Assembly: GCF_039697315.1 (NCBI RefSeq)
Contig: NZ_CP155619.1
Coordinates: 3,844,001-3,908,000 of the forward strand
DNA from: Pseudomonas abietaniphila
Lineage (GTDB): Bacteria > Pseudomonadota > Gammaproteobacteria > Pseudomonadales > Pseudomonadaceae
DNA length: 64,000 bases
Reading direction: 5' to 3'
In this document: positions 14,546 through 33,188 of the stretch, piece by piece
Layout of the letters: each line of letters starts with the position of its first letter
Numbering within the stretch: the stretch's first letter is position 1
Notes under the pieces: model-generated
Databases searched by the model: none
The model's input: the letters and a program-made list of their open reading frames with translations, nothing else
What the model was told of the DNA's origin: nothing
Made by a program: the position numbers and the translations under genes

Positions 14546-14678
14546 GTCTGCTTCCTGATGAAAGGGGTGGAACACAATAAAGACTGTTCGCTTTGGCTGT
14601 CGATGGGCGAGACGAGTTCCCTGAAGCATAAAGGCTGTTTGGCATGACGGGCAGATTTCTTGTGAGCAGATGCAGGCC

Positions 14679-14770
14679 CCTGTGGGAGCGAGCTTGCTCG
14701 CGAATGGGCCTCTCACTCAATGCCGGGTCGACTGATATGCCGCCTTCGCGAGCAAGCTCGCTCCCACAGG
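14679..14770. repeat. Perfect REP inverted repeat at the 5' end of pbpC
   Basis: A 25-base arm (14679-14703, beginning CCTGTGGGAGCGAGCTTGCT) is an exact inverse complement of 14746-14770, separated by 42 bp. It overlaps the upstream edge of the pbpC reading frame and so blurs its true start. Confidence 0.93.
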
Positions 14771-17126
14771 ATCGCGGTCTGCCGCACAGTGGATGGCAAC
14801 GGGCGAGACGAGCAGGGCGCTGGGTCATGGGCAGCCTGCTGCTGGTATGCCTGCTGCTCTGGCTCGCGGACCGGATCTGGCCATTGCCGCTGCCCAAGGA
14901 TGATATGGCGCGGGTGGTGCTCGCTGAAGACGGCACGCCGTTGTGGCGCTTCGCCGATGCCAACGGCGTGTGGCGTTACCCGGTGACGGTCGATCAGGTA
15001 TCGCCCTATTACCTCGAAGCGCTGCTCACCTACGAAGACCGCTGGTTCTATCAGCACCCCGGCGTGAACCCGATGTCGCTGGTGCGAGCGACCTGGCAGA
15101 ACCTCAGTGGCGGCCATGTGGTGTCAGGCGGCAGCACGTTGTCGATGCAGGTCGCGCGCTTGCTCGATCCCCATTCGCGCACGCTGCCGGGCAAGTTCCG
15201 CCAGTTATGGCGCACGGCACAGCTCGAATGGCATTTGTCCAAGCAGGAGATCCTCGGCCTCTACCTCAATCGCGCGCCGTTCGGTGGCACCTTGCAAGGC
15301 GTCGCGGCGGCCAGTTGGGCGTACCTCGGCAAGTCGCCACAACAGCTGACACGCGCCGACGCCGCGCTGCTCGCCGTCCTGCCGCAGGCGCCCAGTCGCT
15401 TGCGCCCGGATCGGCACCCTCAGCGCGCGCAGGCCGCGCGCGACAAAGTGCTGAGGCGTCTGGCCGAGTTCGGCGTGTGGCCGCAATCATCCGTCAATGA
15501 GGCGCTGGAGGAACCACTGTTGCTCGCGCCGCGACAGGAACCGAGTCTCGCACCGCTGCTCGCTCGACGACTCAATCGTCCGGACAGTCCGCCCTTGATC
15601 CGTACGGCACTGGATGCAGGATTGCAGCGTCGTCTCGAAGACCTGCTACTGGGTTGGCGTGCGCGGCTCCCGGAACGCACCTCGGCAGCGATTCTGGTGG
15701 TGGAAGCCGAGAGCATGGCGGTGCGCGCTTACGTCGGCTCTGTGGACATCGGCGATGCCAAACGCTTCGGTCATGTCGACATGGTCAGCGCGCTGCGATC
15801 ACCAGGCTCGACGCTCAAACCTTTTCTGTACGGCAAAGCGATGGACGCCGGGCTGATTCATTCCGAGTCACTGTTGCAGGACGTGCCGCGACGTTACGGC
15901 GATTACCGGCCGGGTAACTTCTCGTCAGGTTTCAACGGCGCGGTGGCGGCAAGTTCTGCCCTCTCGATGTCGCTCAATCTGCCTGCCGTGCAACTGCTCG
16001 AAGCCTATGGTCCCAAACGCTTTGCTGCCGAGTTGCGCAACGGCGGTGTGCCGCTGACCTTGCCGCCGCTGGCCGAACCGAACCTGGCGTTGATTCTCGG
16101 CGGCGCGGGCAGTCGGCTGGAGGATCTGGTGGGCGGCTACAGCGCGTTCGCGCGGGGCGGTCGCAGTGCCGACATCCGCTTGCAACCGGACGACCGTCTG
16201 CGTGACCGGCCGATGATGTCGCCGGGGCCGCGTGGATTATCCGGCGCATCCTCAGCGGCCAGTCGCGGCCCGATCTGGACCCGCATGCCGAGCTGGTTCA
16301 GCGTCCGCAACTGGCCTGGAAAACCGGCACCAGTTATGGCTTCCGGGATGCCTGGTCCATCGGGGTCGGGCCGAGGTTTTTGATTGGCGTGTGGATTGGC
16401 CGGCCAGACGGCACGCCGGTGCCCGGGCAGTTCGGACTGGCGTCGGCGGCGCCTCTGATGCTGCAGGTTCACGATCTGCTGGTGAACCGCGATGCTCAGC
16501 GCAACATCGTGCCGCCGATACTGCCGGTGCCGCTCAACGTGGGTGTGGCTGCCATCTGCTGGCCGTTGGGGCAACCGATGAGCAAGAGCGACCCCAACTG
16601 TCGGCGTCAGCGCTTTGCCTGGACGCTGGACGGCACCACGCCGCCGACCCTGCAAGCCACCGATCAACCGCTGGGGCTGGGGCTGCTGGAGAAAGTCTGG
16701 GTCAACGACAAGGGGTTGCGTGTCAGTGCGAGTTGTCCACAGGCTCAGGCTCGGGATATTGCGCTGTGGCCCGCGCCGTTGGAGCCCTGGCTAGCGAAAA
16801 GCGAGCGCAGAGAGGCACGCTTGCCGGCGGTCGATCCGGCCTGTCCGCCGGAAGCGCTTGGCCTGGCGGCGCCGCTGACGATTGTGGGGGTTCGCGAGGG
16901 CGATCAACTGCGTTTGCCGGCAGGCAGTCAGCAGCAGCTGCGTCTGAACCTGTCGGCGCTGGGAGGCAGTGGTCGACGGTGGTGGTTCATCGACGGAGCG
17001 CCGGTGGGCGACACCGCGAATCAGGGCAGCTACAACCACACGTTCACCCGGCTGGGTCGCTATCAACTGAGCGTGCTGGACGAAAGCGGCCAGACCGCGC
17101 GGGTGGAGTTCAGTGTGGTGGATTGA
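14734..17126 (+). pseudogene. pbpC: Penicillin-binding protein 1C, frameshifted
   Basis: PbpC is a class A murein synthase partner of the periplasmic alpha-2-macroglobulin. The first frame (to 16383) holds a membrane anchor (GSLLLVCLLLWLAD), the transglycosylase domain (EDRWFYQHPGVNP, SGGSTLSMQVARLL) and the start of the transpeptidase, with the catalytic serine in SPGSTLKP (codon 15808-15810). After MMSPG the frame is lost. Adding one G to the GGGG at 16224-16227 restores the expected GAAWIIRRIL, then WKTGTSYG (KTG box) and the C-terminal domain to 17126. The uncorrected product lacks the KTG box, so transpeptidation should fail. Start is uncertain: ATG 14734 lies in the REP repeat; ATG 14827 is the alternative. 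It may be a real mutation or a homopolymer sequence error. Confidence 0.88.
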
Positions 17127-17518: not shown

Positions 17519-19159
17519 ATGAAAACCCAAATGTTTTTCGCGACATCCGCATTGGCACTTGTTCTGGCAGTCAGCCTGGGCGGTTGCAGCAGTGGCGGTG
17601 GTGGTTCGAAAAGTCATGTCGATGGTTCGTCATCAGCGGGTACATCGGGAGGCTCCGCCAGTGACGGAAGTACCGATGGCAGCGGCACGGGTGGCACTGG
17701 CAGTACAGGCGGGACAGGCGGTGTTGCCGATGGCGGTACGGGTGGAACCGGTGGCACGGGCGGCACAGGGGGCACAGGCGGTGGTACCGGAGGAACTGGC
17801 GGCGGCGGGGTAGGGACCCCGGTGGTGCGTTCGACCACCGCCCAGACCAGCATCAATCTGGGGAATGTGCTCGGCCAGGTCGGCGATGCGGTGGTCGGCG
17901 TCGGAGATGCCGTGTCTTCGGTGCCACTCGCAGGCAACACGGATCTGACGTCTGGCGCAGGTGGTCTGTTGTCCTCGGCTGGCACGGCTGTCAACAGCGT
18001 TGGCGACGGACTGGTGAAAGGTTTGGGGACCCTGGGCACCGACAGCAACTCCCTGGGCGTGACACTCTCCAGCGTCGGCACCGCGACAGGCGACCTGGGC
18101 GGCGGCGTTTCTTCCCTCGGTACCGGCGTGACGAAATTTGCCAGATCCTCAACGATTGAACAGGTGCCGCTGGTGGGTACGGTGGTCGCAGGGGCTGGTG
18201 GCCTGGTTGATGGCGTCGGGCAAAAAGTCACCATGTTGGGCGACACCCTGAGCGCCGCGACCACCAGCGGTCCACTCGGATCTGCGACGAAAGCGATAGG
18301 CGACAAGCTGGTGCCAGTCGTGTCGATGCTGGAATCGACCACTGACAAAGTGGGCGATGCCACAGGGTTAGGCGCGCCTGTCAATGGCTTGCTGCAAAAC
18401 GCCAAAGGCACGCTCAACAATCTCGGCAGTACGCTGCAAAACGGCGCTGCGAATAACCCGGTCACCGCTGGGCTTGGCGGATCGCTGGGCGGGTTGGGCG
18501 ATGTGGCAGGCACGGCCGCGGGCTATCTGCAGGCCGGTGCGGGCACCGGTGGCAGCGTCGGGTTGCCAGGGTTGCCAGGGTTGCCGGGTGTACCGGGGCT
18601 GCCGGGTGTACCAGGGCTTGGCGGCGGATTGCTGGAAAACGTCGGTGGTGTCGTGGTCGCTGCTGGCACAGGTCTGACTGGAGGTTCCGGCAACACCGTG
18701 GTCGGTCTACTGGGTCTGAATGCCAGTAATGGCGGGGCGACGATAGCCTCTCTTGGTCCGATCCTTGGCGGCAATGGGGTGCCCAATACCGCACTTGGTG
18801 CACCGATCGCAGCGCTGACCACGAACGTGTCGGCTGCGGTGGGCCCGGTGATCAACAACGTCACCAGCGTGACCCAGAACATCGGTGCATCGACGGGGCT
18901 CGGTGGGCCTGTCAGCGGTCTGCTCGGGCAGGTCGGTAATGCGGTGAGCGGTGTGGGTAACCAGATCGCAAACGCGAGCGCCAATCCGGTCGCGGCGACA
19001 GCAGGTGCGACGGTTTCAAGTGTGGGCAATACGGTGGTGCACACCGGCGGTGTGGTCAATGGCGGCGGCGCGTCGGCCGGTGGTATCGGCGGGCTGCTCA
19101 ACGGGGTAACAGGCGCTTTAGGCGGTGGTTTGGGTGGAGCGTTGGCTAACCGTAAGTAA
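17519..19159 (+). CDS. Glycine-rich collagen-like surface lipoprotein
   Basis: This 546-residue protein has a lipoprotein signal (lipobox SLGGC, Cys23) and is extremely rich in Gly, Ser, Thr, Val and Ala. Residues about 30-98 are Gly-Ser/Gly-Gly-Thr repeats. Residues about 345-365 hold a short collagen-like run of LPG/VPG triplets. Two related blocks, TGLGAPVNGLL (about 281) and TGLGGPVSGLL (about 459), suggest internal duplication. The body is low-complexity, probably amphipathic. ATG 17519 follows GAAGGA; the upstream frame from 17450 is not needed. The next gene encodes a TpsB transporter, so this is its candidate cargo, although it lacks the usual TPS secretion domain. It is probably an adhesin or matrix protein. 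Confidence 0.8.
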   Translation: MKTQMFFATSALALVLAVSLGGCSSGGGGSKSHVDGSSSAGTSGGSASDGSTDGSGTGGTGSTGGTGGVADGGTGGTGGTGGTGGTGGGTGGTGGGGVGTPVVRSTTAQTSINLGNVLGQVGDAVVGVGDAVSSVPLAGNTDLTSGAGGLLSSAGTAVNSVGDGLVKGLGTLGTDSNSLGVTLSSVGTATGDLGGGVSSLGTGVTKFARSSTIEQVPLVGTVVAGAGGLVDGVGQKVTMLGDTLSAATTSGPLGSATKAIGDKLVPVVSMLESTTDKVGDATGLGAPVNGLLQNAKGTLNNLGSTLQNGAANNPVTAGLGGSLGGLGDVAGTAAGYLQAGAGTGGSVGLPGLPGLPGVPGLPGVPGLGGGLLENVGGVVVAAGTGLTGGSGNTVVGLLGLNASNGGATIASLGPILGGNGVPNTALGAPIAALTTNVSAAVGPVINNVTSVTQNIGASTGLGGPVSGLLGQVGNAVSGVGNQIANASANPVAATAGATVSSVGNTVVHTGGVVNGGGASAGGIGGLLNGVTGALGGGLGGALANRK

Positions 19160-19269
19160 ACAGTGCTGGGCAGTGTGAGAACTATTGCGAGTTTGTTTTC
19201 CGTAATGATGTGTTCTTTCTCCGGCTAACTTTGGTAGCGACTTTCCATACAACGCCTACGCTTGTTTCA

Positions 19270-19302
19270 GACAGGGGAGTCGGATGATCCCCTGTCTTTT
19301 TT
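19270..19302 (+). terminator. Rho-independent terminator between collagen-like gene and TpsB gene
   Basis: A perfect 8-bp stem (GACAGGGG / CCCCTGTC) with an 11-base loop is followed by six T residues. It lies 110 bp after the lipoprotein stop and 44 bp before the TpsB start. It shows that transcription is at least partly separated, and it argues against a TpsB start at 19262. Confidence 0.88.
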
Positions 19303-19345
19303 ATGCCTGTGCAACGCCGCTGCTGTTGGCCAATGGAGTGTCCTT

Positions 19346-21022
19346 ATGCGTGCTTGTGTCCCTGTCCTGGTGCTGGGTGTTTCTGTGTCTCCTTTTTTCG
19401 CAAACGCTGAACCGCTTCCCAGTTTTTTGAACAGCAACGACCGCGAACGCACCCTGCCGGTGCCCAACCTCCCCGCCGACGCCTATCGCCCCACTACGCC
19501 CGCCTTGCAAGTCCCCGCGCCTCCGGCCGATGCCACGCCATTGATGATGAGTACCAAGGTCGATGTGCGCAAAATCCGCATCGAGGGCGGGACGGTTTAC
19601 CCGCTCGAAGAGCTGGGCGCGGCCTATGAGTCGCTGATCGGGCGTGATGCCACGCTGGCCGAATTGATCGACGCCACCCGACGCGTGACCAAGCGTTATC
19701 AGGATGACGGCTACTTGTTGTCCTACGCCTTTTTGCCGCCGCAAAGCTTTGATCAGGGGCTGGTGCGAGTCGTGCTGGTTGAAGGGTACGTGCGCGATTA
19801 CCGGTTGGAGGGCGACATCGGCAACGTGTCGGCCTATTTGCAAAAACTGGTCGACAAGATCAAGCAGGAGCGCCCGCTGACCCGCAAGACGTTCGAGCGC
19901 TACACCTCATTGATGAGCCGCGTCCCTGGCGTGACGTTGCAGGCTCAGGTGCCGCCACCCGGCACCACCAACGGCGCGACGACGCTGATCGCCCAAGCGT
20001 CGCGCAAGCCTTTTACCAGCACGCTGAGCACCACCGATGACAACCGCGACGGCCTGCAGGCGCTGCTCGGCCTGAACAGCAATGCGCAGACCTCCATGGC
20101 CGAACAACTCACGGTCAGCGGGCTGTTTCCGCCGGGTGACGACAACGAACACTACTACCGGCTCGATTACAGCCAGTACCTCAATACCGAAGGGACGCAG
20201 CTGAACCTGTCGGCCTCGCATTATCGCAGTGAGCCCGGCACCAACGTCGCGCTGGACAACGGCCTGGAGCTCAAGCAACGACGCGACAACGACCGCTTTT
20301 CCATCGGCTTCACCCATCCGTTGATCGCGGCGCAAAGTGAGTGGCTCAGTGTCGGTTCGCGCCTGTATGCCGTGAACGACAAGACCCGCTACGACGTGAT
20401 TGGCTTTCCGCTGAGCGTGGAGAGCAAAACCGACATTCGGGCGCTGGCGATCGAAGGGGACTGGCGCAAGTCTACGGATCGCCAGCTGCGCATCCTTAGC
20501 GCCGGTGTGTATCAGGGGATCGATGGCATGGGTGCCAAAACGGACGACAACACCTACGACCTCGACTTCTTCCGCGCGCGGTTGTCGGGCGTGCAGAGCG
20601 ACACGTTTTTCGAGCACTGGCAGGGCGTGTTTTCGGCGGCGCTTTACTGGAGTGACGACACCTTGCCGGACAGTGAACGGGCACAGTTTGGCGGCCAGAA
20701 TTTCGGTCGTGGTTACCCGACCGACCAAGCGTCGGGGGACAAGGGTTGGGGTGTGGCGTATGAGGTCAACTACAGCTTCAGGCGCGACGGCAACTGGGTC
20801 AAAGTGCTGCAACCGTATGTGGTGCTCGACACTGCGAGGACCTGGTTCAACGAGCTGCCGATCAAGACGTCGAGGTTGTCTTCGGCGGCGACAGGTTTGC
20901 GCTTTGGTGATGCCCGTTACTACAACATCGCACTGGAGGCCGCCAAGCCCATGTCCGATGTTGGCCTGGATAGCTTTAACCGCAACCCGAGATTTACCTT
21001 GAGTTTCAGTTACCAGCTTTGA
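19346..21022 (+). CDS. TpsB-type outer-membrane transporter (ShlB/FhaC/HecB family)
   Basis: This 558-residue protein has a signal peptide (MRACVPVLVLGVSVSPFFANA) and one clear POTRA_2 domain at about residues 72-148 (VRKIRIEGGTVYPLEEL ... VRVVLVEG). A 16-strand barrel over about 155-558 ends in FTLSFSYQL. A preceding Pro-rich linker (about 40-65) may be the plug/linker region. Family members export a large beta-helical partner in two-partner secretion. No such TpsA gene is nearby; the only neighbour is the collagen-like lipoprotein upstream. ATG 19346 is chosen because TGGAG precedes it and the signal peptide follows directly. Confidence 0.88.
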   Translation: MRACVPVLVLGVSVSPFFANAEPLPSFLNSNDRERTLPVPNLPADAYRPTTPALQVPAPPADATPLMMSTKVDVRKIRIEGGTVYPLEELGAAYESLIGRDATLAELIDATRRVTKRYQDDGYLLSYAFLPPQSFDQGLVRVVLVEGYVRDYRLEGDIGNVSAYLQKLVDKIKQERPLTRKTFERYTSLMSRVPGVTLQAQVPPPGTTNGATTLIAQASRKPFTSTLSTTDDNRDGLQALLGLNSNAQTSMAEQLTVSGLFPPGDDNEHYYRLDYSQYLNTEGTQLNLSASHYRSEPGTNVALDNGLELKQRRDNDRFSIGFTHPLIAAQSEWLSVGSRLYAVNDKTRYDVIGFPLSVESKTDIRALAIEGDWRKSTDRQLRILSAGVYQGIDGMGAKTDDNTYDLDFFRARLSGVQSDTFFEHWQGVFSAALYWSDDTLPDSERAQFGGQNFGRGYPTDQASGDKGWGVAYEVNYSFRRDGNWVKVLQPYVVLDTARTWFNELPIKTSRLSSAATGLRFGDARYYNIALEAAKPMSDVGLDSFNRNPRFTLSFSYQL

Positions 21023-22006: not shown

Positions 22007-22310
22007 CTGACTTCTCCTCTGCGCTTCTTGGCGCCATTACACGCTTGCAGCGTTTAACAATCCTTCGTAACTACAGCATTGACCCCAATGCCCGACTCTA
22101 CAATCACAAGAAAGCATTAATCAGAAAGTATTACCCCCTTGTGCGCTTGTCCCCCGAACGGATGCCATGAGGTGAAATTTCCCACAACTGATGGCGTTTT
22201 GGATGACCTCGACTACCTTCAAAGGGCGAAAGGATGAATGTTCGCAGCCAACTGAATCACAGGTTGTCTCGTAACGTTTCGAAGGTGTGATCGGGCAAGG
22301 GAGGGCCGTC
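22007..22310. promoter_or_regulatory. Divergent promoter region between flp and rcpC
   Basis: These 304 bp separate the two oppositely transcribed Tad units and include an A+T-rich stretch around 22070-22140. In P. aeruginosa the corresponding region is controlled by PprB. I could not identify a specific binding motif here. Confidence 0.45.
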
Positions 22311-23258
22311 ATGAGCAGTCGCGTCACAACGGGGCTCGCTGTGCTGTTTTTGCTGGGGGCGCTGTTTGCCGGGTATTGGGGATTGGTGCTGAGTCGCCAG
22401 CCAGCGCCGGTGCCTCAAGCGCCCGTTGTGCAAACTGACACCGTCGTTGCAGCGCCTCCCGTCGCTGAAAAACCGATGGAAGATCCCACCCGCCAGCCGG
22501 TGCTGGTGCTCGCCAAAGACATTCCCGCCTATGCACCTATCAAGGCTGACGACCTGATCGTCGAGCGTCTGAAAGTCGCGCCTGCCGGAAGCTTCAGCAA
22601 GCCTGAAGAGGCCATCGGTCGCATGTCCTGGCGTCCATTGGCGGCTGGCACCTGGCTGACAGACAGCAGCTTCGAAGCAGGTGGCACCCTGGCGCGCATG
22701 ATCCGCCCTGGCGAGCGGGCACTGGCCTTGTCCATTGACGAGATCATCGGCGCAGGCGGGCAGTTGAGCCCCGGTGACTACGTCGATGTACTCCTTTATT
22801 TGCCGTCCGATCAAACCAATACCGATCGCACTGCACAAACCGTTGTGCCTGCGTTACGGGTGCTCAGTGTCGGGGCGCTCATGGGGCCGGTCAATCAAGG
22901 ACAGGAAGAACAGGGCATCAGCCGAGACGAGCGTGCGCAGCAACAGAAACTCAAGGCAAACGCGCGCAGCGTGGTCGTGGCGGTCCCGGAAAAACTGCTC
23001 AACCGCCTGATGCTGGCGTCTCAGGCCGGACCGCTCAGGCTCGCCGTGCGCAGCGCCGAAGAAAAGAACCTGGAACGTTACTGGGCCGGCGACAGCGACA
23101 TCGCCCTTCAGCAAGACGCCGCAAGTCGCAACATCACTCACTTCAATCAACTGAGCATGGGCGCTGCGCGCAGCGTCCAGGTTGGCAGCGGCGAGCCTCG
23201 CAAGCCGCGGTCAATCGAAGTCATTCGTGGCAATCAAACGGCGCAGCAAACCCCCTGA
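22311..23258 (+). CDS. rcpC: Flp pilus assembly protein CpaB/RcpC
   Basis: This 315-residue protein has an N-terminal membrane anchor (about 7-30) and a SAF-type domain (about 65-130, VLVLAKDIPAYAPI ... LIVERLKV) found in CpaB/RcpC. The RcpC/CpaB domain follows (about 130-270, including LSPGDYVDVLLYLP). It is thought to sit at the secretin and may gate pilus passage. ATG 22311 follows GGGAGG; the upstream GTG at 22287 is disfavoured. It opens the rcpC-rcpA-tadZABCD operon. Confidence 0.92.
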   Translation: MSSRVTTGLAVLFLLGALFAGYWGLVLSRQPAPVPQAPVVQTDTVVAAPPVAEKPMEDPTRQPVLVLAKDIPAYAPIKADDLIVERLKVAPAGSFSKPEEAIGRMSWRPLAAGTWLTDSSFEAGGTLARMIRPGERALALSIDEIIGAGGQLSPGDYVDVLLYLPSDQTNTDRTAQTVVPALRVLSVGALMGPVNQGQEEQGISRDERAQQQKLKANARSVVVAVPEKLLNRLMLASQAGPLRLAVRSAEEKNLERYWAGDSDIALQQDAASRNITHFNQLSMGAARSVQVGSGEPRKPRSIEVIRGNQTAQQTP

Positions 23259-23279
23259 TCGAGCAAGGACTGCACATTC

Positions 23280-24536
23280 ATGAGCAAGTGTTTTAGGCCG
23301 ATGTTGAACCGTGCCGTATTGGCTTTTTCAGCAGGGTGTCTGTATCAGGGGGGCGTGGTCGCAGCGCCGGCAGGTTGCGCCGGGTTGCCAGCGATGCCTG
23401 CGGCCATGGAGATTGGCCAGGGCGTGCAGCAGGACATTCGCTCGCCGGTCGCGATCACGCGGCTTGCAGTCGGGGACCCGAAAATCGCCGACGTGCATGT
23501 CAATGACGGCGACAGCAGCGGGTATCTGTTGACCGGCGTCGGGCCTGGCACCACCAGCCTGATGGTCTGGACCGCCTGCTCTTCGTCGCCTCGGCAAAGC
23601 ATGGTGTTCGTGCGGGGCACGGCAAAAACAGCGATGACCGACACGCTGATTCCGCCGTCTGAAGACCCGCTGTTGCCCAGTCAGGTGCAGACCGACATTC
23701 GATTCGTCGAAGTCAGCCGCACCAAGCTCAAAGAAGCCAGCACATCGATCTTCGGCAGAGGCTCCAGCAATTTCCTGTTCGGCTCTCCCGGCACGGTTCC
23801 GGGCGTCACGGTCACGCCGGGCACCCTGGGCGGCACGCGGCCGGCGATTCCGCTGAACAACAACAATTTCAATATTGTCTGGGGCGGCGGCAGCAGCAAA
23901 GTGCTGGGCTTGCTCAACGCCATGGAAAGCAGCGGCTTCGCGTATACCCTGGCGCGTCCAAGCCTGGTGGCGCTGAGCGGGCAGAGTGCGAGTTTTCTGG
24001 CCGGGGGTGAGTTTCCGGTGCCGGTGCCCAACGGTGAAGGCAACGGCATTTCCATCGAATACAAGGAATACGGTGTCCGCCTGACCCTGACGCCGACCGT
24101 GGTGGGTCGCAATCGTATCGCCTTGAAGGTCGCCCCCGAGGTCAGTGAGCTGGACTTCACGGCCGGCGTGACCATTGCCGGCACCACGGTGCCCGCGCTG
24201 AACGTACGTCGCACCGATACCAGCGTCTCGCTGGCCGATGGCGAAAGTTTCGTGATCAGCGGTCTGATCAACACCAGCAACATTGCCTCGGTGGACAAGT
24301 TTCCCGGTCTGGGCGACATCCCGATTCTCGGTGCGCTGTTTCGCAGTTCCCAGATCAATCGGGACGAGCGCGAGCTTTTGATGATCGTCACCCCGCACCT
24401 GGTCCAGCCGCTGGCGGCCAATGCGCCGTTGCCTTCGCTGCCCGGTGAAGGGTTGCGTAACTACGATCCGAACTTCCTGAAAATGTATTTCCTCGAAAAC
24501 GGCAGTTTCGACCGCCGCAGCGGGTTATCGCAATGA
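23280..24536 (+). CDS. rcpA: Tad secretin RcpA/CpaC
   Basis: This 418-residue protein forms the outer-membrane ring for the Flp pilus. It has a signal segment and an N-terminal domain with GQGVQQDIRSPVAITRLAVGDPKIADV (pilus-assembly N-domain, about 45-75). The secretin domain covers about residues 220-380, with SGQSASFLAGGEFPVP and the conserved C-terminal VSGL-type segment (SFVISGL ... PGLGDIPILGALFRS). Length fits RcpA. The stop overlaps the tadZ start by four bases (ATGA). Confidence 0.94.
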   Translation: MSKCFRPMLNRAVLAFSAGCLYQGGVVAAPAGCAGLPAMPAAMEIGQGVQQDIRSPVAITRLAVGDPKIADVHVNDGDSSGYLLTGVGPGTTSLMVWTACSSSPRQSMVFVRGTAKTAMTDTLIPPSEDPLLPSQVQTDIRFVEVSRTKLKEASTSIFGRGSSNFLFGSPGTVPGVTVTPGTLGGTRPAIPLNNNNFNIVWGGGSSKVLGLLNAMESSGFAYTLARPSLVALSGQSASFLAGGEFPVPVPNGEGNGISIEYKEYGVRLTLTPTVVGRNRIALKVAPEVSELDFTAGVTIAGTTVPALNVRRTDTSVSLADGESFVISGLINTSNIASVDKFPGLGDIPILGALFRSSQINRDERELLMIVTPHLVQPLAANAPLPSLPGEGLRNYDPNFLKMYFLENGSFDRRSGLSQ

Positions 24537-25732
24537 GCCAGGGACCCAGCTTGAGCCAGACCTTTCTGGCCATTACGCGCAACACCACCGACCTCGAATG
24601 GCTGCAGGGCGCGCTGGCGCCGTTGGGGCAGGTGGTGAGCGCGGGAACCGGCAGCCTCGACGAACTGCTCGCCTTGGTGGACGTGACCTTCGCCAGCGTG
24701 GTGTTCGTGGGGCTTGATCGTGAGCATTTGATGAACCAGAGCGCGTTGATCGAAGGTGCGCTGGAGGCCAAACCGATGCTGGCCATCGTTGCCTTGGGCG
24801 ACGGCATGGACAACCAGTTGGTGCTCAACGCGATGCGCGCCGGTGCGCGGGATTTCGTCGCCTATGGCTCACGCTCCAGTGAAGTGGCCGGGCTGGTGCG
24901 GCGTCTCAGCAAACGCCTGCCAGCCGTGGCGCCGAACCCTAACATGGGCGGCCTGACCGTGATTTACGGCGCCCAGTGCGACGGTGACGGCGCGTTGGTG
25001 TCGGCGCATCTGGCGCTCGTGGCGCAGCAAAAAGGGCAGCGCACCTTGCTGCTGGACCTCGGCATGCCGCGCGGCGACAGCCTGGCGATGCTGAGCCTCG
25101 AATCGTCGTTCAATTTCGGCGATGCCCTGCGGCACCTCCGCAGGCTCGACTCGACGCTGATCGACAGCGCCTTCACCGTTCACGCCAGTCAATTGCGCAT
25201 CCTCGCCTACGCCCACGACGATATGTCGCTCGAGCACACCAGCGCAGCCGAGTTGTACATGTTGCTCAGCGCTTTGCGTCAGCATTTTCAGCGTGTGGTG
25301 GTGAATCTGGTGGGGCAGCCGGACAGTGAGTCGTTGCGTACCTTTGTGGCGCATTGTGATCAGTTGCTGTGGTACGTCGACCAGAACGTCATCGAGTGTC
25401 GGCGCAATCTGGCGATCCTCAATCTATGGCGCGAGAAGGGCCTGAAGCTTCAGCAAGCCGGCTTGTTGGTGGACAAATACCTGCGCCAGGTCACGCCCAA
25501 TTCCGAGACGCTGGAAAAGACCTTCGGCCTGCCCGCGCTGGGCGTGCTGCCGTTGAGTCCGGAGTTGCGGTTGAACGCCAAAAATCAAGGCCTGTCGTTG
25601 TTCGAACTGTCGCCACGGGAGTCCCTGACCAGTGGTTTACGCGGTCTGGGAGAACGCTTGGCGAGCCAATCCGACGCACCAGGCAAGCCCCGCGACGGTT
25701 GGCTGGGTCGCCTGTTGAGGACGCATAAATGA
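24533..25732 (+). CDS. tadZ: TadZ/CpaE-type localisation protein with degenerate P-loop
   Basis: This 399-residue protein has an N-terminal atypical receiver-like domain (about 10-120) and a MinD/ParA-like domain (about 138-370), the architecture of TadZ/CpaE, which places the pilus machine at the pole. The deviant Walker A loop is altered: GAQCDGDGAL (about 146-155) replaces the usual GGxGxxK[ST], so both lysine and serine/threonine are missing. The following LLLDLGMPRGDSLAM keeps the usual strand and aspartate. It may bind nucleotide weakly or not at all. It overlaps rcpA and tadA by four bases at each end. Confidence 0.9.
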   Translation: MSQGPSLSQTFLAITRNTTDLEWLQGALAPLGQVVSAGTGSLDELLALVDVTFASVVFVGLDREHLMNQSALIEGALEAKPMLAIVALGDGMDNQLVLNAMRAGARDFVAYGSRSSEVAGLVRRLSKRLPAVAPNPNMGGLTVIYGAQCDGDGALVSAHLALVAQQKGQRTLLLDLGMPRGDSLAMLSLESSFNFGDALRHLRRLDSTLIDSAFTVHASQLRILAYAHDDMSLEHTSAAELYMLLSALRQHFQRVVVNLVGQPDSESLRTFVAHCDQLLWYVDQNVIECRRNLAILNLWREKGLKLQQAGLLVDKYLRQVTPNSETLEKTFGLPALGVLPLSPELRLNAKNQGLSLFELSPRESLTSGLRGLGERLASQSDAPGKPRDGWLGRLLRTHK

Positions 25733-26991
25733 AAGGCGAAAAGCTCTTTGGCGTGTCAGCCCGTCCTGCCGACAGCGGCGGGGACGGCCAAGGCCTGAAG
25801 CTGGTCTTGCATCGCTACATCATCGACGCCATCGAGGAGAGTGGACGCAACCTGCTGGAAGGCACACGCCCTGCGCTGGCGCAGTTTGTCACCGACAAGG
25901 TCGCCGAGTATGTGGCCCGGTTGCGCCTGGCGATTTCCCGCTACGAGATGGAGCGTCTGGCCGAAGAGCTGGTCGACGAACTGACCGGGTTCGGGCCGCT
26001 CGAGGTGCTGCTGCGCGACAATTCGGTCACGGAAATCCTGGTGAACGGTCCGAACAAGGTCTTCATCGAGCGCGAAGGTGTGTTGCATCACTCGGACCTG
26101 CGCTTCATCGATGCCCATCATGTGGAGCGCGTGATTCAGCGGATTCTTGCGCCTCTGGGGCGGCGTCTGGACGAGTCTTCACCGATGGTGGATGCGCGGT
26201 TGCCCGATGGCAGCCGGGTCAATGCGATCATCCCGCCGATTGCCCTGGACGGCCCTTGCCTGTCGATCCGGAAGTTTCGCAAGGACATGCTCAAGAGTTC
26301 GGACCTGGTTGCGATGCAGACCATCGATCAGTCGATCTACGACTTTCTGGAAAACGCGGTGAGCAAGCGCTGCAACATCCTGATCAGCGGCGGCACCGGC
26401 ACCGGCAAGACCACCATGCTCAACGTTCTGAGCCAGATGATTCAGACGCAGCAACGCTTGGTGACCATCGAGGACGTGGCTGAACTGCAGCTCGGTCACC
26501 CGCACGTGGTGCGGCTGGAGACCCGTCCGCCCAATGCCGAAGGCCACGGCGAAGTCCGTGCCAGCGACCTGATTCGTAATGCGCTGCGGATGCGGCCAGA
26601 CAGGATCATTCTGGGTGAGATCCGGGGTGTTGAAGTGCTCGACGTCATGACCGCCATGAATACCGGGCACGACGGCTCCATGAGCACCGTCCACGCCAAC
26701 AACGCGCAAGACGCGTTGCTGCGTCTTGAAACGCTGGTGGGCCTGACCGGTCGGCAAATTGCCGAGAAAACGTTGCGGCAAATGATCTGCGCCGCGCTGG
26801 ACGTGATCATTCAGCTGACGCGCATGCCTGACGGTCGGCGTTGTGTCAGCGAGGTGGTGGAAGTGGTAGGCACGCGCGATGACGTGTACGTCACCAACAC
26901 GCTGTTCCGCCTGGATCGGCGCACCGGTTTCGGTTTTCTGCGCGAGGCGATCAACCCGGCCGGCGACAAGCTGCGCCAGCTCGATTACTAA
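25729..26991 (+). CDS. tadA: Tad pilus ATPase TadA/CpaF
   Basis: This 420-residue type II/IV secretion ATPase drives Flp assembly. After an N-terminal helical domain comes FGPLEVLLRDNSVTEILVNGP. Walker A GGTGTGKTT is at about residues 221-229, followed by the VTIEDVAELQL Asp box, Walker B RMRPDRIILGEIRG and the His box (MNTGHDGSMSTVHANN). All catalytic motifs are intact. The start overlaps the tadZ stop. Confidence 0.97.
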   Translation: MKGEKLFGVSARPADSGGDGQGLKLVLHRYIIDAIEESGRNLLEGTRPALAQFVTDKVAEYVARLRLAISRYEMERLAEELVDELTGFGPLEVLLRDNSVTEILVNGPNKVFIEREGVLHHSDLRFIDAHHVERVIQRILAPLGRRLDESSPMVDARLPDGSRVNAIIPPIALDGPCLSIRKFRKDMLKSSDLVAMQTIDQSIYDFLENAVSKRCNILISGGTGTGKTTMLNVLSQMIQTQQRLVTIEDVAELQLGHPHVVRLETRPPNAEGHGEVRASDLIRNALRMRPDRIILGEIRGVEVLDVMTAMNTGHDGSMSTVHANNAQDALLRLETLVGLTGRQIAEKTLRQMICAALDVIIQLTRMPDGRRCVSEVVEVVGTRDDVYVTNTLFRLDRRTGFGFLREAINPAGDKLRQLDY

Positions 26992-27031
26992 GCCACGGAG
27001 TGGGTCAGCCTATGAAACAGGGAGATTCAAG

Positions 27032-27916
27032 GTGAAGGGAGCCATCGTCCTCGGACTGATTTTCATGCTGATGATGGCAGCCTCGCTGTACCTGTTCTAT
27101 CGCGGGCTGAACAAGGGCGCCAATGAACGGATCATGGCGAGGCTTGCGGTTGACCAACCTGTGGCTGCGACCACCAAGCCGGGAGCGGACCGCATTGAGC
27201 GGGCGTTCTTGCGGGCAGGTCTTGGAAAACCAACCGAGCGGTTACCGTTGGCGATCACGGTCTGGGGACTGTCGATGCTCGTGGGATACCTGGCGTACGA
27301 CGGGTTCGGGCTGGTGCTTGGGATCCTGCTCCCGGTGATCGTGCTGCGGTTCTACGTGAGCTTTCGCTACCAGCGGCGCGTGAGTCGCATGATCGAGCAA
27401 TTGCCGCAACTGCTTGACCACACGGTGCGCAGCTTGAAGTCCGGGCGGACCCTCGGCGACGCCGTACTGAACAGCATTGATGCAGCGGTCTCTCCATTGA
27501 ACGAAGCCATGTCCCGGATCAAACGCAATGTCCAGCTGGGGGTGACGCTGCCGGATGCAGTACAGGATTTTGCCGAGCTGTATGAGCGCGACGAGTTTCG
27601 GTTGTTTGCGTTGGGGCTTAGGGTCAACCACCGCTATGGCGGCAACGCGAGCGAACTGCTGGAGAACCTGATCCGCGTGATCCGGGAGCGGGAGCAGGGC
27701 GCTCGTCAACTACGCGCGCTGACCGGCGAAACGCGCCTGACTGCAGTCGTTCTGGCCTTGCTGCCGTTAGGCATGGTTGCTTATTTTTTGATTGTGAACC
27801 CGGCCTACCTGATGCACATGTGGGCTGACGACTCCGGGCAAACAATGCTGATGGTCGCGTTCGCGTTGCAGACATTGGGCTGTCTGGTGTTGTGGCGCAT
27901 GCTGAGGAGTATTTGA
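27032..27916 (+). CDS. tadB: Tad inner-membrane platform protein TadB
   Basis: This 294-residue protein has T2SS-F domains with the RMIEQLPQLLDHTVRSLKSG motif typical of TadB, and about four membrane segments (N-terminal around 5-22, middle around 72-100, and two near the C-terminus). It forms the platform with TadC. I chose GTG at 27032, preceded by AGGGAG seven bases upstream. The longer open frame from 26879 would overlap tadA widely. A seven-codon frame (27012-27035) ends across this start codon. Confidence 0.92.
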   Translation: MKGAIVLGLIFMLMMAASLYLFYRGLNKGANERIMARLAVDQPVAATTKPGADRIERAFLRAGLGKPTERLPLAITVWGLSMLVGYLAYDGFGLVLGILLPVIVLRFYVSFRYQRRVSRMIEQLPQLLDHTVRSLKSGRTLGDAVLNSIDAAVSPLNEAMSRIKRNVQLGVTLPDAVQDFAELYERDEFRLFALGLRVNHRYGGNASELLENLIRVIREREQGARQLRALTGETRLTAVVLALLPLGMVAYFLIVNPAYLMHMWADDSGQTMLMVAFALQTLGCLVLWRMLRSI

Positions 27917-27917
27917 G

Positions 27918-28805
27918 ATGGTTTTGATGCTCAGTGCTCTCCTGTTCGCAGCGGCTGGATTCTTTCTGATGCTGTCCGTGGCGCGTCAGCGTCGTAACGC
28001 GCGCCAGATCATGTCTCGGCTGCATGGTGAGATCGCGCGTGACAGTCGGGTCGGCAGCCTTCTTCGCCTATTGGGTGACAGCCGATTCGGTCAGCGCTCC
28101 GTCAGCCTGGACAGCGAAACGCAGATCCTGCTCAACCGTATCGGCTGGCGCCGGGCGCGACAGCGCTCACTGTTCGCCGCCTGTCAGGTGGGTGTCCCCA
28201 TCGTCGCGGTGTGCGTGGTCATGCTGATTCAGGCGCTGTTTTTCAGCGACGTGCAATACCCGGTCATGGCGCCCCTGTTTGCGGTCGGTCTTGGTTACCT
28301 AGCACCCAAACGAGTACTCGCGGCCGCGGCTGCCCGTCGGCAAAAGCGGACGGTCGTCGAGATCGGTACTTTCATCCCGCTGCTACGGATCCTGTTCGAG
28401 TCAGGCATGGCCGTTGAGCAGGCACTGCGCGTGCTGAGTTCCGAGGGCAGCAAACTTTTGCCGGTTCTGTCTTCGGAGCTGCGGGTGATGCTGGTGCGGG
28501 TCGATTCCGGGCTCGAACTGGGTGATGAACTGAACAAGGTCGCGTCAGTGCTGGCCGTCGATGAGTTCAGTGACACCTGCGTCATTCTCAATCAGTTGAT
28601 TCATCAGGGCGGCGGGGCGATGAAGTCACTGCTCACGCTCAAGCAACTGATCGATGATCGTCGCCTGACACGCCTGCAGGAATACATCTCCAAGCTCTCG
28701 GCAAAGATGTCGGTGGTGATGATGGTGTTTCTGTTTCCGGCATTACTGATCGTATTGGCCGGGCCGGGTTTTATCGCCATCGGCAAGGCTTTGGGTTCGC
28801 ATTAG
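27918..28805 (+). CDS. tadC: Tad inner-membrane platform protein TadC
   Basis: This 295-residue T2SS-F family protein is the partner of TadB. It has an N-terminal membrane segment, a basic cytoplasmic part, two central membrane segments (about 92-130) and a last one at about 270-290 (VMMVFLFPALLIVLAGPGFIAIG). The motif IPLLRILFESGMAVEQALRVL is the F-domain signature. It starts one base after the tadB stop. Confidence 0.93.
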   Translation: MVLMLSALLFAAAGFFLMLSVARQRRNARQIMSRLHGEIARDSRVGSLLRLLGDSRFGQRSVSLDSETQILLNRIGWRRARQRSLFAACQVGVPIVAVCVVMLIQALFFSDVQYPVMAPLFAVGLGYLAPKRVLAAAAARRQKRTVVEIGTFIPLLRILFESGMAVEQALRVLSSEGSKLLPVLSSELRVMLVRVDSGLELGDELNKVASVLAVDEFSDTCVILNQLIHQGGGAMKSLLTLKQLIDDRRLTRLQEYISKLSAKMSVVMMVFLFPALLIVLAGPGFIAIGKALGSH

Positions 28806-28814
28806 GGAGATCGC

Positions 28815-29543
28815 ATGAAAGCAGTCATCGCCGCATTGGGACTGGTCCTGCTCAGCGGGTGTGCCACGGATGGCAGCGCGCCCTGGCTAGCTCAGGCCAC
28901 CAGCCGCAGTTGCGCCAAGCCAACCTCGGATCAGGAGCTGGCGTTGAACATGGCGCAGGACATGGCCGACGAAGGTCGTCTGCACGCCAGCCTGGCCAAC
29001 CTCGAAAGCCTGCCGTCCACGCTGCCGGAGGTTCGGCTGCGCAAGGCGCGGGTGTTGCGCCTGTTGGGCAGCAATGAGGCCGAGCCGCTGTACAAGAGTT
29101 TGCTGGGCACCTGTCGGGCAGCCGAAGGCGAGCACGGTCTGGGTCAGCTGGCAGCAGCGCGCGGGGACAATGGTCAGGCGTTGATGCATTTGCAGGCCGC
29201 CGTGAAGCTGTCGCCCACTGACGAGAAAATCCGTAATGACCTCGGAGTGGTGTATCTCAATCAACTGAAGCTCGACCAGGCGCGGTTCCAGTTTCTGACG
29301 GCGATCGAACTCAAGCAGTCCGACACGCTGGCCGCGCTGAACATGGTGACGTTGTTGATCTATCAGGACGACTGGACCCAGGCGGCGGAGCTGGTGTCGC
29401 GGACGGGGCTGACACCGGATCAGGTCAACGATGCGCAAGCCCGCGCCGAAAAACTCAAGGGCGCCTCGGGCGGTTCGCCCATCAAAACCGACAAGGTCGC
29501 CACCGTCACCGATCCCGCCGTGATTGCAGGGAGACAGCCATGA
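28815..29543 (+). CDS. tadD: Tad pilotin-like TPR lipoprotein TadD
   Basis: This 242-residue lipoprotein (LLSGC, Cys16) has TPR-type helices over residues about 40-200 (EHGLGQLAAARGDNGQALMHLQAAVKLSP and following). TadD is thought to help the RcpA secretin assemble. It starts nine bases after tadC with GGGAGA as ribosome site. Its stop overlaps the next start by four bases. Confidence 0.92.
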   Translation: MKAVIAALGLVLLSGCATDGSAPWLAQATSRSCAKPTSDQELALNMAQDMADEGRLHASLANLESLPSTLPEVRLRKARVLRLLGSNEAEPLYKSLLGTCRAAEGEHGLGQLAAARGDNGQALMHLQAAVKLSPTDEKIRNDLGVVYLNQLKLDQARFQFLTAIELKQSDTLAALNMVTLLIYQDDWTQAAELVSRTGLTPDQVNDAQARAEKLKGASGGSPIKTDKVATVTDPAVIAGRQP

Positions 29544-30440: not shown

Positions 30441-31588
<1,148 letters not shown>

Positions 31589-31760: not shown

Positions 31761-32528
31761 TCAATGCGCCGTCACACGCCCCCGTGCCGCGGCATTGTTC
31801 GGTGACAACGCCAGCGCCAGTTGGGTGCGGTTGTGCATGTGGGTCAGCCGCAGGACTTGAGACACATACAGCTTCACGGTGTTTTCCGTGATGCCCAGCT
31901 CGCAGGCGATCTGGTAGTTGGTCTGGCCTTTGCTCACCAGCTTGGCGACCTCCAGCTGGCGCGGGGAGAGTTGTTCGAAGATGGCGGGCATTTCAAAGTC
32001 GACATCGCTGTCCCCGATGACCGGCTGAGCGAGCTGTCGTGATTTGTCCAGGTCCTGGCAAAGGTCGTCGATGGACGCCGCCAGAAACTGCAACTTGTCG
32101 TTGAGATGGCCCAGGTGCTGGACGTTTTTCACCCGCTCCTCCAGTGATGCTTGCTGGCGTTGCACGCCTTCGAGCATCTCGTTCAGGTCCACGGGTTTCT
32201 GATAATAATCGGCTATCCCGGCCCGCAGGGCCTTGATCACGTCCTGTTTCTCGGCGCGACCGGTGAGCATGATGGATTCGAAGATGCGTTTCTTCCCGGC
32301 CAGCACCTTCATGGCTTCCACCAGTTCGATGCCGTTCATGCCGGGCATGTCCAGGTCACACAGCACGATGGCAATGGCGCTGTCGTCGCGGAATCGTTCC
32401 AGCGCCTCCCGGCTCGAATAACAGGGCACGCAGCGGTAGCCGCTGCCTTCCAGAAATTCGGTGATCTCATCGACGATAAGGGGCTGATCGTCGACCACCA
32501 ACACCTTCACGGCTGAATACTTGTTCAC
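31761..32528 (-). CDS. pprB: Response regulator PprB (NarL/LuxR type)
   Basis: This 255-residue protein has a REC domain (about 8-122; phospho-acceptor in VLCDLDMPGMNG), a linker with a helical coiled segment (about 125-175) and a LuxR-type HTH (about 183-250; LSPRQLEVAKLVSKGQ ... NTVKLYVSQVL). In P. aeruginosa PprB activates the Tad pilus and other adhesion genes. GTG 32528 is chosen because AGGGAG precedes it; the ATG at 32570 has no ribosome site. It lies 147 bp downstream of fppA on the same strand. Confidence 0.88.
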   Translation of the reverse strand: MNKYSAVKVLVVDDQPLIVDEITEFLEGSGYRCVPCYSSREALERFRDDSAIAIVLCDLDMPGMNGIELVEAMKVLAGKKRIFESIMLTGRAEKQDVIKALRAGIADYYQKPVDLNEMLEGVQRQQASLEERVKNVQHLGHLNDKLQFLAASIDDLCQDLDKSRQLAQPVIGDSDVDFEMPAIFEQLSPRQLEVAKLVSKGQTNYQIACELGITENTVKLYVSQVLRLTHMHNRTQLALALSPNNAAARGRVTAH

Positions 32529-32645
32529 TCGCGACTCCCTGCGACTGCTTTTGAACGGGTCCGGCGCCATGGAGGTCCTTCACGGCATGCCACTGTAGGA
32601 CGATCTCTGTCCGGACGTAGGGATAAACCTAGTCGCACTTTCTGA

Positions 32646-32657
32646 CTATGTACATAG
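32646..32657. promoter_or_regulatory. Perfect palindrome upstream of pprB
   Basis: CTATGTACATAG is a 12-bp perfect palindrome in the 147-bp gap between fppA and pprB. It could be an operator, for instance autoregulatory. No known site is recognised. Confidence 0.3.
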
Positions 32658-32675
32658 AGTGAGATGGCAATTCGA

Positions 32676-33146
32676 CTAGTGGATCGAGAGCGCCGTCGCC
32701 GCGAAGCCTACAAACAAAAACGGCACGAAGGGCTGTTTGTTTGACGCGTGCGGCGCAAGGTTGGGGTATCGGTTTCTAACCCGTTGACTCACATGGCACC
32801 AGCGTTTTTGACGCAGGATCAGCCAGATCACAGTGGCCACCCCGGCCCCGATAAACGTCCCCAAAAGGTGTACGTAATCGCTGCCCAGCGCCAAGGCGAC
32901 CAAGAGTTTCACATCGCCTGCGCCGAGCCTGTTCAAGGCATAACCCGGCAGGGTCATGACCAGGGCCAACAGTAACGCCCACCACGCATCCGGCGCCGGG
33001 GCGCCGAGCCAGCTGTTGCCGTTTATCAGCAGGTACATCAGAAAAAACAGCGTGCCCCCGAACGTCAATGCGTTGGAAACCTTTCTGCCTCGGGCGTCCT
33101 GATCGGCACAGACGGCAAACCACAGCAGCAGACCAAGTAAATTCAT
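32676..33146 (-). CDS. fppA: Flp-type prepilin peptidase (A24)
   Basis: This 156-residue inner-membrane protease has the two catalytic aspartates of A24 prepilin peptidases, in CADQDARGRKVSN (about residue 15-17) and GAGDVKLL (GxGD). It lacks the N-terminal methylase domain, as is usual for Tad-locus enzymes. About five membrane segments are present. It should cleave Flp and the TadE-like pseudopilin. It starts only 42 bp from the divergent TadE-like gene. The ribosome site before its ATG is weak. Confidence 0.9.
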   Translation of the reverse strand: MNLLGLLLWFAVCADQDARGRKVSNALTFGGTLFFLMYLLINGNSWLGAPAPDAWWALLLALVMTLPGYALNRLGAGDVKLLVALALGSDYVHLLGTFIGAGVATVIWLILRQKRWCHVSQRVRNRYPNLAPHASNKQPFVPFLFVGFAATALSIH

Positions 33147-33188
33147 GGGGTAAAAAACGTCCTGTTTTTCGGAAAGAATCTATGCTCC

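Follow-up and report, generated by a model that had tools for sequence, protein, structure and literature searches.

A TpsB transporter gene paired with a Collagen_mid lipoprotein gene suggests a two-partner route for a surface lipoprotein

Two hallmarks define type Vb secretion, as in FHA/FhaC and CdiA/CdiB: a TPS domain that attaches to the POTRA domains of the transporter, and beta-helix folding that serves as the pulling force. The transporters carry a VRGY-type motif in the L6 loop, and TpsB proteins have an N-terminal plug helix, H1. TpsA passengers adopt a beta-helix fold and measure about 100-650 kDa, and POTRA2 of FhaC contains a major passenger site (PMC5422565). Slam moves surface lipoproteins by means of one outer-membrane barrel; it has been likened to two-partner secretion, with a flip of the lipid through a lateral gate proposed (PMC9090332). 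In the Burkholderia cepacia complex, the Collagen_mid lipoproteins BCAL1523 and BCAL1524 are encoded near Flp pilus genes in a proposed operon with BCAL1522, whose entry there reads outer-membrane 'exported heme utilization-related protein'; the terms 'ShlB', 'FhaC' and 'two-partner' do not occur in the main text of that article (PMC10224339). Knock-out of BCAL1524 lowers autoaggregation and the protein is present in outer-membrane vesicles (PMC10303873), which does not prove surface exposure.

The stretch of DNA analysed here (the window, 64,000 nucleotides from Pseudomonas abietaniphila) holds, at 17519-21022 on the plus strand, a gene for a Collagen_mid lipoprotein (17519-19159) and then one for a TpsB transporter (19346-21022). 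Open reading frames and Pfam thus place both genes where an earlier note on this DNA had put them. The pair has in common with BCAL1523/1524 the type of lipoprotein and the nearby Flp pilus genes (PMC10224339), and BCAL1522 can be compared with the window TpsB by name only, a TpsB relative (P0083) bearing the same name. Our literature search found no description of a TpsB/Collagen_mid lipoprotein pair.

The TpsB protein (558 aa, ShlB/FhaC/HecB family), whose start at ATG 19346 was picked by alignment with relatives, matches POTRA_2 (4.3e-18, 65.4 bits, cut-off 24) and ShlB (1.3e-10, 41.7 bits, cut-off 22.7). To our knowledge, the Slam barrel has neither POTRA_2 nor ShlB, and its family differs from that of the window TpsB; a search of the host genome for SlipAM (PF04575) gave no match, with the controls silent too. 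The AlphaFold2 model (mean pLDDT 74.6) contains two POTRA domains and a barrel. The POTRA domains span residues 70-147 and 148-205 (19553-19960, plus strand), with PF08479 at 73-147 and the limits of POTRA2 taken from the model. The best PDB matches are 4ql0 (FhaC; TM 0.56, E 9.8e-21) and 6wim (TM 0.62), both TM values being by query length, and the predicted fold is FhaC/CdiB-like. At the L6-loop position the protein reads GRGY; across 29 aligned rows R455 is nearly invariant and G456 and Y457 are invariant, while the first position differs. Residues 1-44 and 49-65 are modelled with pLDDT below 50, and after the signal peptide only a four-residue helix (44-47) is predicted.

It is the partner that departs from type Vb. 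POTRA_2, the ShlB barrel, the predicted fold and the two-gene arrangement are shared with that class, whereas the window lipoprotein has a lipobox and lacks both a TPS domain and an NPNG motif, is predicted to be helical, with helical/heptad periodicity, rather than beta-helical, and has a precursor of 48.8 kDa as against about 100-650 kDa for TpsA (PMC5422565). The 546-residue protein, read from ATG 17519, matches PF15984 over two stretches (1.4e-44, 152.7 bits, family cut-off 31.1); Collagen_mid was the sole Pfam match, no TPS domain was detected, and neither NPNG nor NPNL occurs in the sequence. The lipobox, the Gly-Gly-Thr linker and the missing TPS domain, all claimed earlier, were therefore borne out. 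The signal peptide (17519-17587, plus strand) ends in the lipobox LGGC, with Cys23 at 17585-17587. In an alignment of the window lipoprotein with 20 of 28 parsed homologs (A1, 21 rows), G22, C23, S24, S25, G26-G29 and S32 are invariant. The motif GCSSGGGG is found in all 30 homologs listed, 28 of which fit the lipobox pattern, the other two (L004 and L012) having been read by eye; the lipobox is weak, with Ser at -3 of the cysteine, in 6 of 16 lipoproteins from outside loci. A protein search for homologs gave only two matches among 7988 scored candidates, probably because the low-complexity linker took up the search words.

Downstream of the cysteine lies a Gly/Thr/Ser linker of variable length (17588-17830, plus strand; 48% Gly), which is predicted to be disordered (pLDDT below 50 for residues 1-102) and shows a period-3 but also a period-2 glycine signal. 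It leads into the Collagen_mid domain (residues 105-335, 17831-18523), predicted to be helical and heptad-like, and, on the same strand, into a second predicted helical domain (residues 371-515, 18629-19063) that is a diverged copy of the first: it corresponds to the second PF15984 stretch, and BLASTP between the two halves gives 2.7e-19 with composition filters off. The LPG/VPG repeats mentioned in the earlier note are present, but as a single short run of six triplets (18560-18619, plus strand) that is not conserved; across the 28 parsed homologs xPG triplets number 0-5, mostly 0-2, and on this comparison the repeats are nearly private to the species of the window. The protein ends in a Gly/Leu-rich tail (19064-19156, plus strand) with a basic end: all 28 Pseudomonas homologs have K, R or H within the final two residues.

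Bacterial collagens such as streptococcal Scl form Gly-X-Y triple helices. Gly-x-y stretches do occur in the linker of the window lipoprotein, but period-3 glycine is confined to this region, and the conserved domains have alpha-helical/heptad periodicity instead, with a 120-degree signal of 0.40-0.90 versus peaks of 4.0-7.2 at other angles. On this ground a true collagen triple helix was dropped. The predicted fold is all-helical, in a model of middling quality (mean pLDDT 65, pTM 0.46, 21 sequences). As a statement about structure the earlier term 'collagen-like' does not hold up; judged by periodicity and prediction, the label is misleading.

The two genes form a conserved two-gene unit. 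Among 69 Pseudomonas genomes carrying a window-type TpsB, the lipoprotein gene lies directly upstream in 56, and the same arrangement, on one strand, holds in 56 of the 58 PF15984-positive Pseudomonas genomes, the matches in the other two falling below the family cut-off. Of 271 matches, the best 80 named loci, which at 67-97% identity are near relatives, include 79 with the lipoprotein upstream; the sole miss is a locus cut by a contig end. Beyond Pseudomonas, families f5 and f160 together provide nine loci, eight of which have the lipoprotein directly upstream, the remaining one again being cut by a contig end; the lipoprotein is also directly upstream in all four Burkholderiaceae loci examined (four of the five top records, H3 having been left out). 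The co-occurrence as neighbors that had been suggested as a check is thus seen within the genus and outside it. Since pbpC flanks only 24 of 63 full-flank loci, the pair outlasts its neighborhood.

The transporters concerned also group together. In our tree, one branch with an SH-aLRT of 100 splits the lipoprotein-type TpsBs (those of Pseudomonas, f5 and f160) from 20 other TpsBs. From Pseudomonas the tree took 17 of the 56 TpsBs paired with the lipoprotein and 12 of the 13 without it (all but L070); to these were added seven from the eight outside loci with a TpsB, and the 20 others, with none from Burkholderiaceae. Among the TPS matches listed, ten of these 20 have one within about 2 kb and three within about 8 kb, six are from genomes not searched for TPS, and one (L204) has none, so their label as 'TpsA-type' is partly assumed. 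The profile gives 306-350 bits to seven of the eight outside TpsBs and 25-129 to the 20 others; the eighth (L099), omitted from the tree because it is split in two frames, scores 167 and 153 bits.

In 13 of the 69 Pseudomonas genomes the window-type TpsB is kept while the lipoprotein is not detectable, which counts against exclusive pairing. These TpsBs are intact and, in the 12 of 13 tested, under purifying selection (rough Nei-Gojobori dN/dS, from pairs with dS below 1.5 only, 102 of 136 and 62 of 66), which implies that another role was held or gained. The A1 profile gave weak matches (E 0.003-0.16) in 7 of 14 genomes, the 13 plus G028; read by eye, these are Pal/OprL-like, OmpA-like and LysM-type proteins, and a further one, a frame without a lipobox, was likewise rejected as a hidden partner. 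In the lipoprotein-less clade divergence is raised in POTRA2 (+0.213) and not in POTRA1 (+0.008); the POTRA2 change is only suggestive, since constraint is also relaxed in the barrel (+0.136) and in the N-terminal segment (+0.160). A lineage that has the TpsB but has lost the lipoprotein offers a ready natural comparison.

The occurrence of a TpsB next to a small, apparently lipid-anchored Gly-rich protein in many environmental bacteria suggests an undescribed route for a surface lipoprotein. We think it probable, from sequence and models, that the pair is a variant of type Vb secretion, devoted to a lipid-anchored, Gly-rich helical adhesin in place of a TPS-domain beta-helix protein. The lipoprotein would be exported by Sec, lipidated at the Cys23 of its lipobox and delivered by Lol to the outer membrane, where the unfolded Gly-rich/heptad chain could be captured by the POTRA domains and threaded through the barrel, probably from its C-terminal side because lipids hold the N-terminus. 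Once outside, the helical repeats might fold and pack and thereby pull the chain out, and the 80-residue Gly/Thr linker could span the barrel or bridge the distance between lipid anchor and surface. The protein is likely to serve adhesion between cells and to surfaces, in many cases together with Tad pili. Whether there is a widespread, undescribed two-partner branch, in which an FhaC-type transporter would use its POTRA domains to move a TPS-less, lipid-anchored, heptad-patterned helical protein together with Tad pili, we consider evenly poised. If so, this pathway would be driven without a TPS domain or beta-helix folding, and Pseudomonas and Burkholderiaceae would have a POTRA-based surface-lipoprotein route working with Tad pili. 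A dedicated TpsB group whose lipobox-bearing partner has neither a TPS domain nor a beta-helix would allow the needs of the transporter to be told apart from the contribution of its usual cargo, and the pair would join Slam as a second candidate for the machinery by which lipoproteins cross the outer membrane.

BamB-E are fixed periplasmic partners of BamA, and by analogy the lipoprotein might be a fixed periplasmic partner of TpsB and not its cargo, the complex exporting or assembling something else, such as a component of a Tad pilus or of the matrix. A lipid anchor by default would hold the protein at the inner leaflet, one clade has lost the lipoprotein and still has the TpsB, and Tad/Flp genes are close by. 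In the window, Pfam recognizes rcpC, the secretin rcpA, tadZ, the ATPase tadA, T2SSF-type tadB and tadC and a TPR protein (tadD by position) at 22287-29543 on the plus strand; within 10 kb, rcpC is found in 57, rcpA in 58 and tadZ and tadA in 60 each of the 63 full-flank Pseudomonas loci, and Tad genes are near the pair in all four Burkholderiaceae loci examined. However, no Tad gene was recognized beside the f5 and f160 pairs in a flank listing read by eye, and dependence on Tad as a rule was dropped. A linker that is long and disordered, and repeats that vary strongly, better suit an exposed protein than a fixed subunit, and the autoaggregation defect of the Collagen_mid knock-out is a surface phenotype (PMC10303873). 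We therefore see a fixed partner as rather unlikely.

A terminator- or attenuator-like hairpin with a T-run lies between the genes (19269-19302, plus strand). Stems of at least 10 pairs with at most one mismatch occur in the intergenic region of 78 of 79 named loci versus 32 of 395 shuffles; a scan with a loop limit of 8 did not list this hairpin, a promoter scan found none, and an Rfam search gave no match. Such a hairpin could mean that the genes serve separate functions within an adhesion island, the lipoprotein surfacing by another route or staying inside, and three of five Collagen_mid lipoproteins of B. cenocepacia are not described beside a TpsB gene of this kind (PMC10224339). We find this improbable, as the pair persists in three or more families whose flanks differ and its TpsBs group together in the tree. 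The hairpin equally fits unequal expression within one operon, and under the cargo reading it may yield more passenger than transporter.

No partner other than the lipoprotein is plausible, as the earlier note had it. The host genome (one contig, 100% complete) contains exactly one POTRA_2 protein, the window TpsB, and no match to the TPS family PF05860, so that the TpsA elsewhere that had been named as a possible refutation was not found and was dropped as a candidate. That the TpsB serves an unrecognized, strongly diverged TpsA, making the lipoprotein irrelevant, is very doubtful: PF05860 could miss a TPS domain that has diverged, and the lipoprotein-less TpsBs do remain intact, but the same search gives matches in 63 of 69 genomes, and a surplus of exactly one POTRA_2 match over TPS matches recurs in 52 of the 69, made up of 39 of the 56 genomes with the lipoprotein and all 13 without it.

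The window carries, on the forward strand, a 546-aa lipoprotein (17519-19159; lipobox with Cys23, Gly/Thr/Ser linker, Pfam Collagen_mid (PF15984), a short LPG/VPG run and no detectable TPS domain) followed by a 558-aa TpsB (19346-21022), which confirms the lipoprotein-TpsB pair of the earlier note. Among sequences of solved structure, the TpsB comes closest to the POTRA domain of TpsB4 (4.5e-7) and to CdiB (7.6e-6). Its AlphaFold2 model (mean pLDDT 74.6) has a barrel and two POTRAs, with FhaC 4ql0 (9.8e-21) and CdiB 6wim (1.3e-20) as best Foldseek matches. We propose that TpsB is probably a dedicated translocator of the lipoprotein. In this model, the lipoprotein would be lipidated, its chain captured by the TpsB POTRAs and threaded through TpsB, and it would fold outside, where it may act in adhesion.

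The earlier note called the lipoprotein collagen-like, a term that is not supported for its structure; a collagen fold was rejected for the conserved domains, which show helix/heptad periodicity and are predicted to be helical. Across 21 aligned rows, both domains have hydrophobic peaks at 100-105 and 155 degrees, with the top helix/heptad-harmonic peaks reaching two- to threefold the 95% shuffle level, and values for hydrophobic residues at 120 degrees of 0.40 and 0.67. For glycine, the first domain has peaks at 105 and 155 degrees and the second at 100 and 60 degrees. The second domain matches the first (2.7e-19, composition filters off), as a diverged copy of it. Glycine makes up 48% of the linker (18 aligned rows), where the period-3 and period-2 signals are of similar size. 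Sixteen lipoproteins of other families also peak at 100 degrees for hydrophobic residues, by a cruder cut with domain limits not based on alignment. The AlphaFold2 model places helices across 106-335 and 371-513, with pLDDT of 80-91 in 14 of 15 ten-residue blocks over 111-260, 75-83 over 371-430 and lower elsewhere; it was built from 21 sequences, and at a pTM of 0.46 its helix packing is not trustworthy.

The expectation that the two genes co-occur as neighbours across pseudomonads was confirmed, and the pairing extends beyond the genus. Among 149 Pseudomonas genomes, 58 match PF15984 at E 0.001 (56 above the family cut-off), 69 have a TpsB ortholog (at least 51% identity), and 56 carry both genes adjacent on the same strand; two sub-threshold matches (G028, G096) lie away from TpsB. 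In a TpsB-based scan, of which the best 80 of 271 matches were retained, the lipoprotein gene lies immediately upstream of TpsB in 79, at a median distance of 108 bp measured from ORF ends, and a contig end cuts off the remaining locus; keeping the best 80 favours near relatives and leaves the lipoprotein-less group described below unrepresented. A 369-genome sample of the class yielded PF15984 above the cut-off only in this genome, G308 and G511. In family f5, outside Pseudomonas, 8 of 57 genomes have it. Two further sub-threshold PF15984 matches, G190 and G287, have no adjacent TpsB. TpsB is directly downstream in eight of nine loci from f5 and a further outside family, f160, the ninth being at a contig edge; in G569 TpsB is split over two frames. 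When large replicons were searched with TpsB by tblastn, 93 records matched, the best five (33-37% identity) being four Cupriavidus and one Caballeronia. A Collagen_mid lipoprotein is directly upstream in all four Burkholderiaceae loci examined from these five, and the three records matched by tblastn with the lipoprotein are all among the best five. The three Cupriavidus loci (L209, L211, L212) have a second, divergently oriented lipoprotein of this type in the stretch that separates the pair from the Tad genes; Pfam was run on five of the seven Burkholderiaceae lipoproteins and confirmed the second one for L209. The TpsB frame is just 404 aa in two of the four loci.

A maximum-likelihood tree of 56 TpsBs, rooted on 20 other Pseudomonas TpsBs, separates the lipoprotein-type proteins (Pseudomonas, f5 and f160) from those 20 by a long branch (SH-aLRT 100), although its details are unsure because long branches were flagged as meeting. 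TpsB profile scores show the same division: seven of the eight outside TpsBs score 306-350 bits, the eighth being broken into two frames, against 25-129 bits for the 20 others. Nested within the lipoprotein-paired proteins and beside the TpsB of locus L057 (SH-aLRT 100) is one group of lipoprotein-less Pseudomonas TpsBs (12 in the tree; SH-aLRT 99), a topology by which the lipoprotein appears to have been lost a single time in Pseudomonas. Thirteen genomes (L062-L074) carry an intact TpsB of this group and no lipoprotein partner, and a profile search with reading of the matches gave no credible lipoprotein elsewhere in them. TpsB follows pbpC with no ORF listed in between in 12 of the 13 loci (the exception is L068), and Tad genes adjoin it in six. 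Median dN/dS is 0.26, versus 0.18 in the paired group. The excess of within-group difference over paired TpsBs is largest in POTRA2 (+0.213, 95% 0.138-0.287), absent in POTRA1 (+0.008) and intermediate elsewhere, at +0.136 for the barrel and +0.160 for the N-terminal segment. Since a major passenger site of FhaC is in POTRA2 (PMC5422565), this pattern is consistent with lost cargo, without being proof of it. No other observation speaks as strongly against an exclusive pair as the retention of TpsB without the lipoprotein. That the lipoprotein is instead a fixed partner of TpsB we regard as unlikely. An Azospirillum TpsB of intermediate similarity (L213, 201 bits) has no Collagen_mid lipoprotein beside it; it is preceded by a cyclase-domain gene and followed, after about 1 kb, by one for a beta-helix repeat protein. 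Directly downstream of the TpsB of locus L088 is a 325-aa Ala/Gly/Val-rich protein (L088:4442-5419) with a signal peptide-like start and no Pfam match.

Downstream of TpsB the window has Tad genes for RcpC, secretin, TadZ, T2SSE and, twice, T2SSF. Within 10 kb in 63 full-flank Pseudomonas loci are rcpC (57), rcpA (58), tadZ (60), tadA (60) and pbpC (24). In the four Burkholderiaceae loci, rcpC and the lipoprotein gene are on opposite strands and 2.0-3.3 kb apart, with rcpA matches in all four (weak in L212) and tadZ in three, Pfam-confirmed in two loci; by-eye reading of the f5 and f160 gene listings recognised no Tad gene. That lipoprotein and TpsB are mere neighbours is improbable in our view.

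The absence of a TpsA beside TpsB, also proposed earlier, was borne out genome-wide. In this single-contig genome of 6.55 Mb, POTRA_2 matches once, in the TpsB of the window, and PF05860, the TPS family, has no match; the identical search was positive in 63 of 69 genomes. Six genomes have one POTRA_2 and zero TPS matches, five with the lipoprotein (G000, G106, G116, G100, G042) and one without it (G103). The POTRA_2 count exceeds the TPS count by exactly one in all 13 genomes that lack the lipoprotein and in 39 of the 56 that have it, and the difference ranges from -2 to 3 in the remaining 17, many of the 69 genomes being drafts. A TpsA hidden elsewhere as the cargo is very improbable in our view.

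Collagen_mid lipoproteins have been described in the Burkholderia cepacia complex, where an operon of bcal1520 and bcal1522-1524 adjoining the Flp operon is proposed and BCAL1522 is listed as an outer-membrane exported heme utilization-related protein (PMC10224339). The terms ShlB, FhaC and two-partner do not occur in its main text. From its size, place and a name shared with the TpsB relative P0083, we infer that BCAL1522 is a putative TpsB. BCAL1524 is reported in outer-membrane vesicles and with a role in autoaggregation (PMC10303873), and PF15984 appears once, in a table, in PMC12724388. No paper describing the pairing was found in the literature covered, subscription journals being mostly outside it.

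In the lipoprotein, Cys is followed by SSGGGG in 30 of 30 Pseudomonas homologs examined, and the C-terminus is Gly/Leu-rich with basic final residues in 28 of 28. In outside lipoproteins, Cys follows a hydrophobic signal-like stretch (16/16), with Ser at -3 in six of 16; Cupriavidus C-termini are much like those of Pseudomonas, while f5 and f160 proteins differ. Between the genes, a stem of at least 10 pairs with a T-run occurs in 78 of 79 named loci (34 different arms, 66 perfect stems; window 19269-19297, T-run to 19302). The corresponding figures are 32 of 395 for dinucleotide shuffles and 11 of 80 for stretches downstream of TpsB; a looser scan found the stem in four of 10 outside loci. 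We interpret this hairpin as an attenuator, which would reduce the expression of TpsB compared with that of the lipoprotein; alternatively, it could mark separate transcripts.

The window also has pbpC broken into two overlapping frames (14644-16383 and 16380-17126); it is a single frame of about 780-825 aa in the relatives examined that carry it. Transposase and integrase-core genes, IS3-like by domains (30441-31588), sit within the Tad locus between a DUF3613 gene and a response regulator (31761-32570). This response regulator forms part of a two-component group with a PAS histidine kinase (33607-36420), accompanied by a prepilin peptidase among the Tad genes at 31761-36420, a set that we take to resemble PprA/PprB. 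Directly downstream of the TadG-like gene are two near-identical tandem 147-bp ORF repeats (36714-37007).
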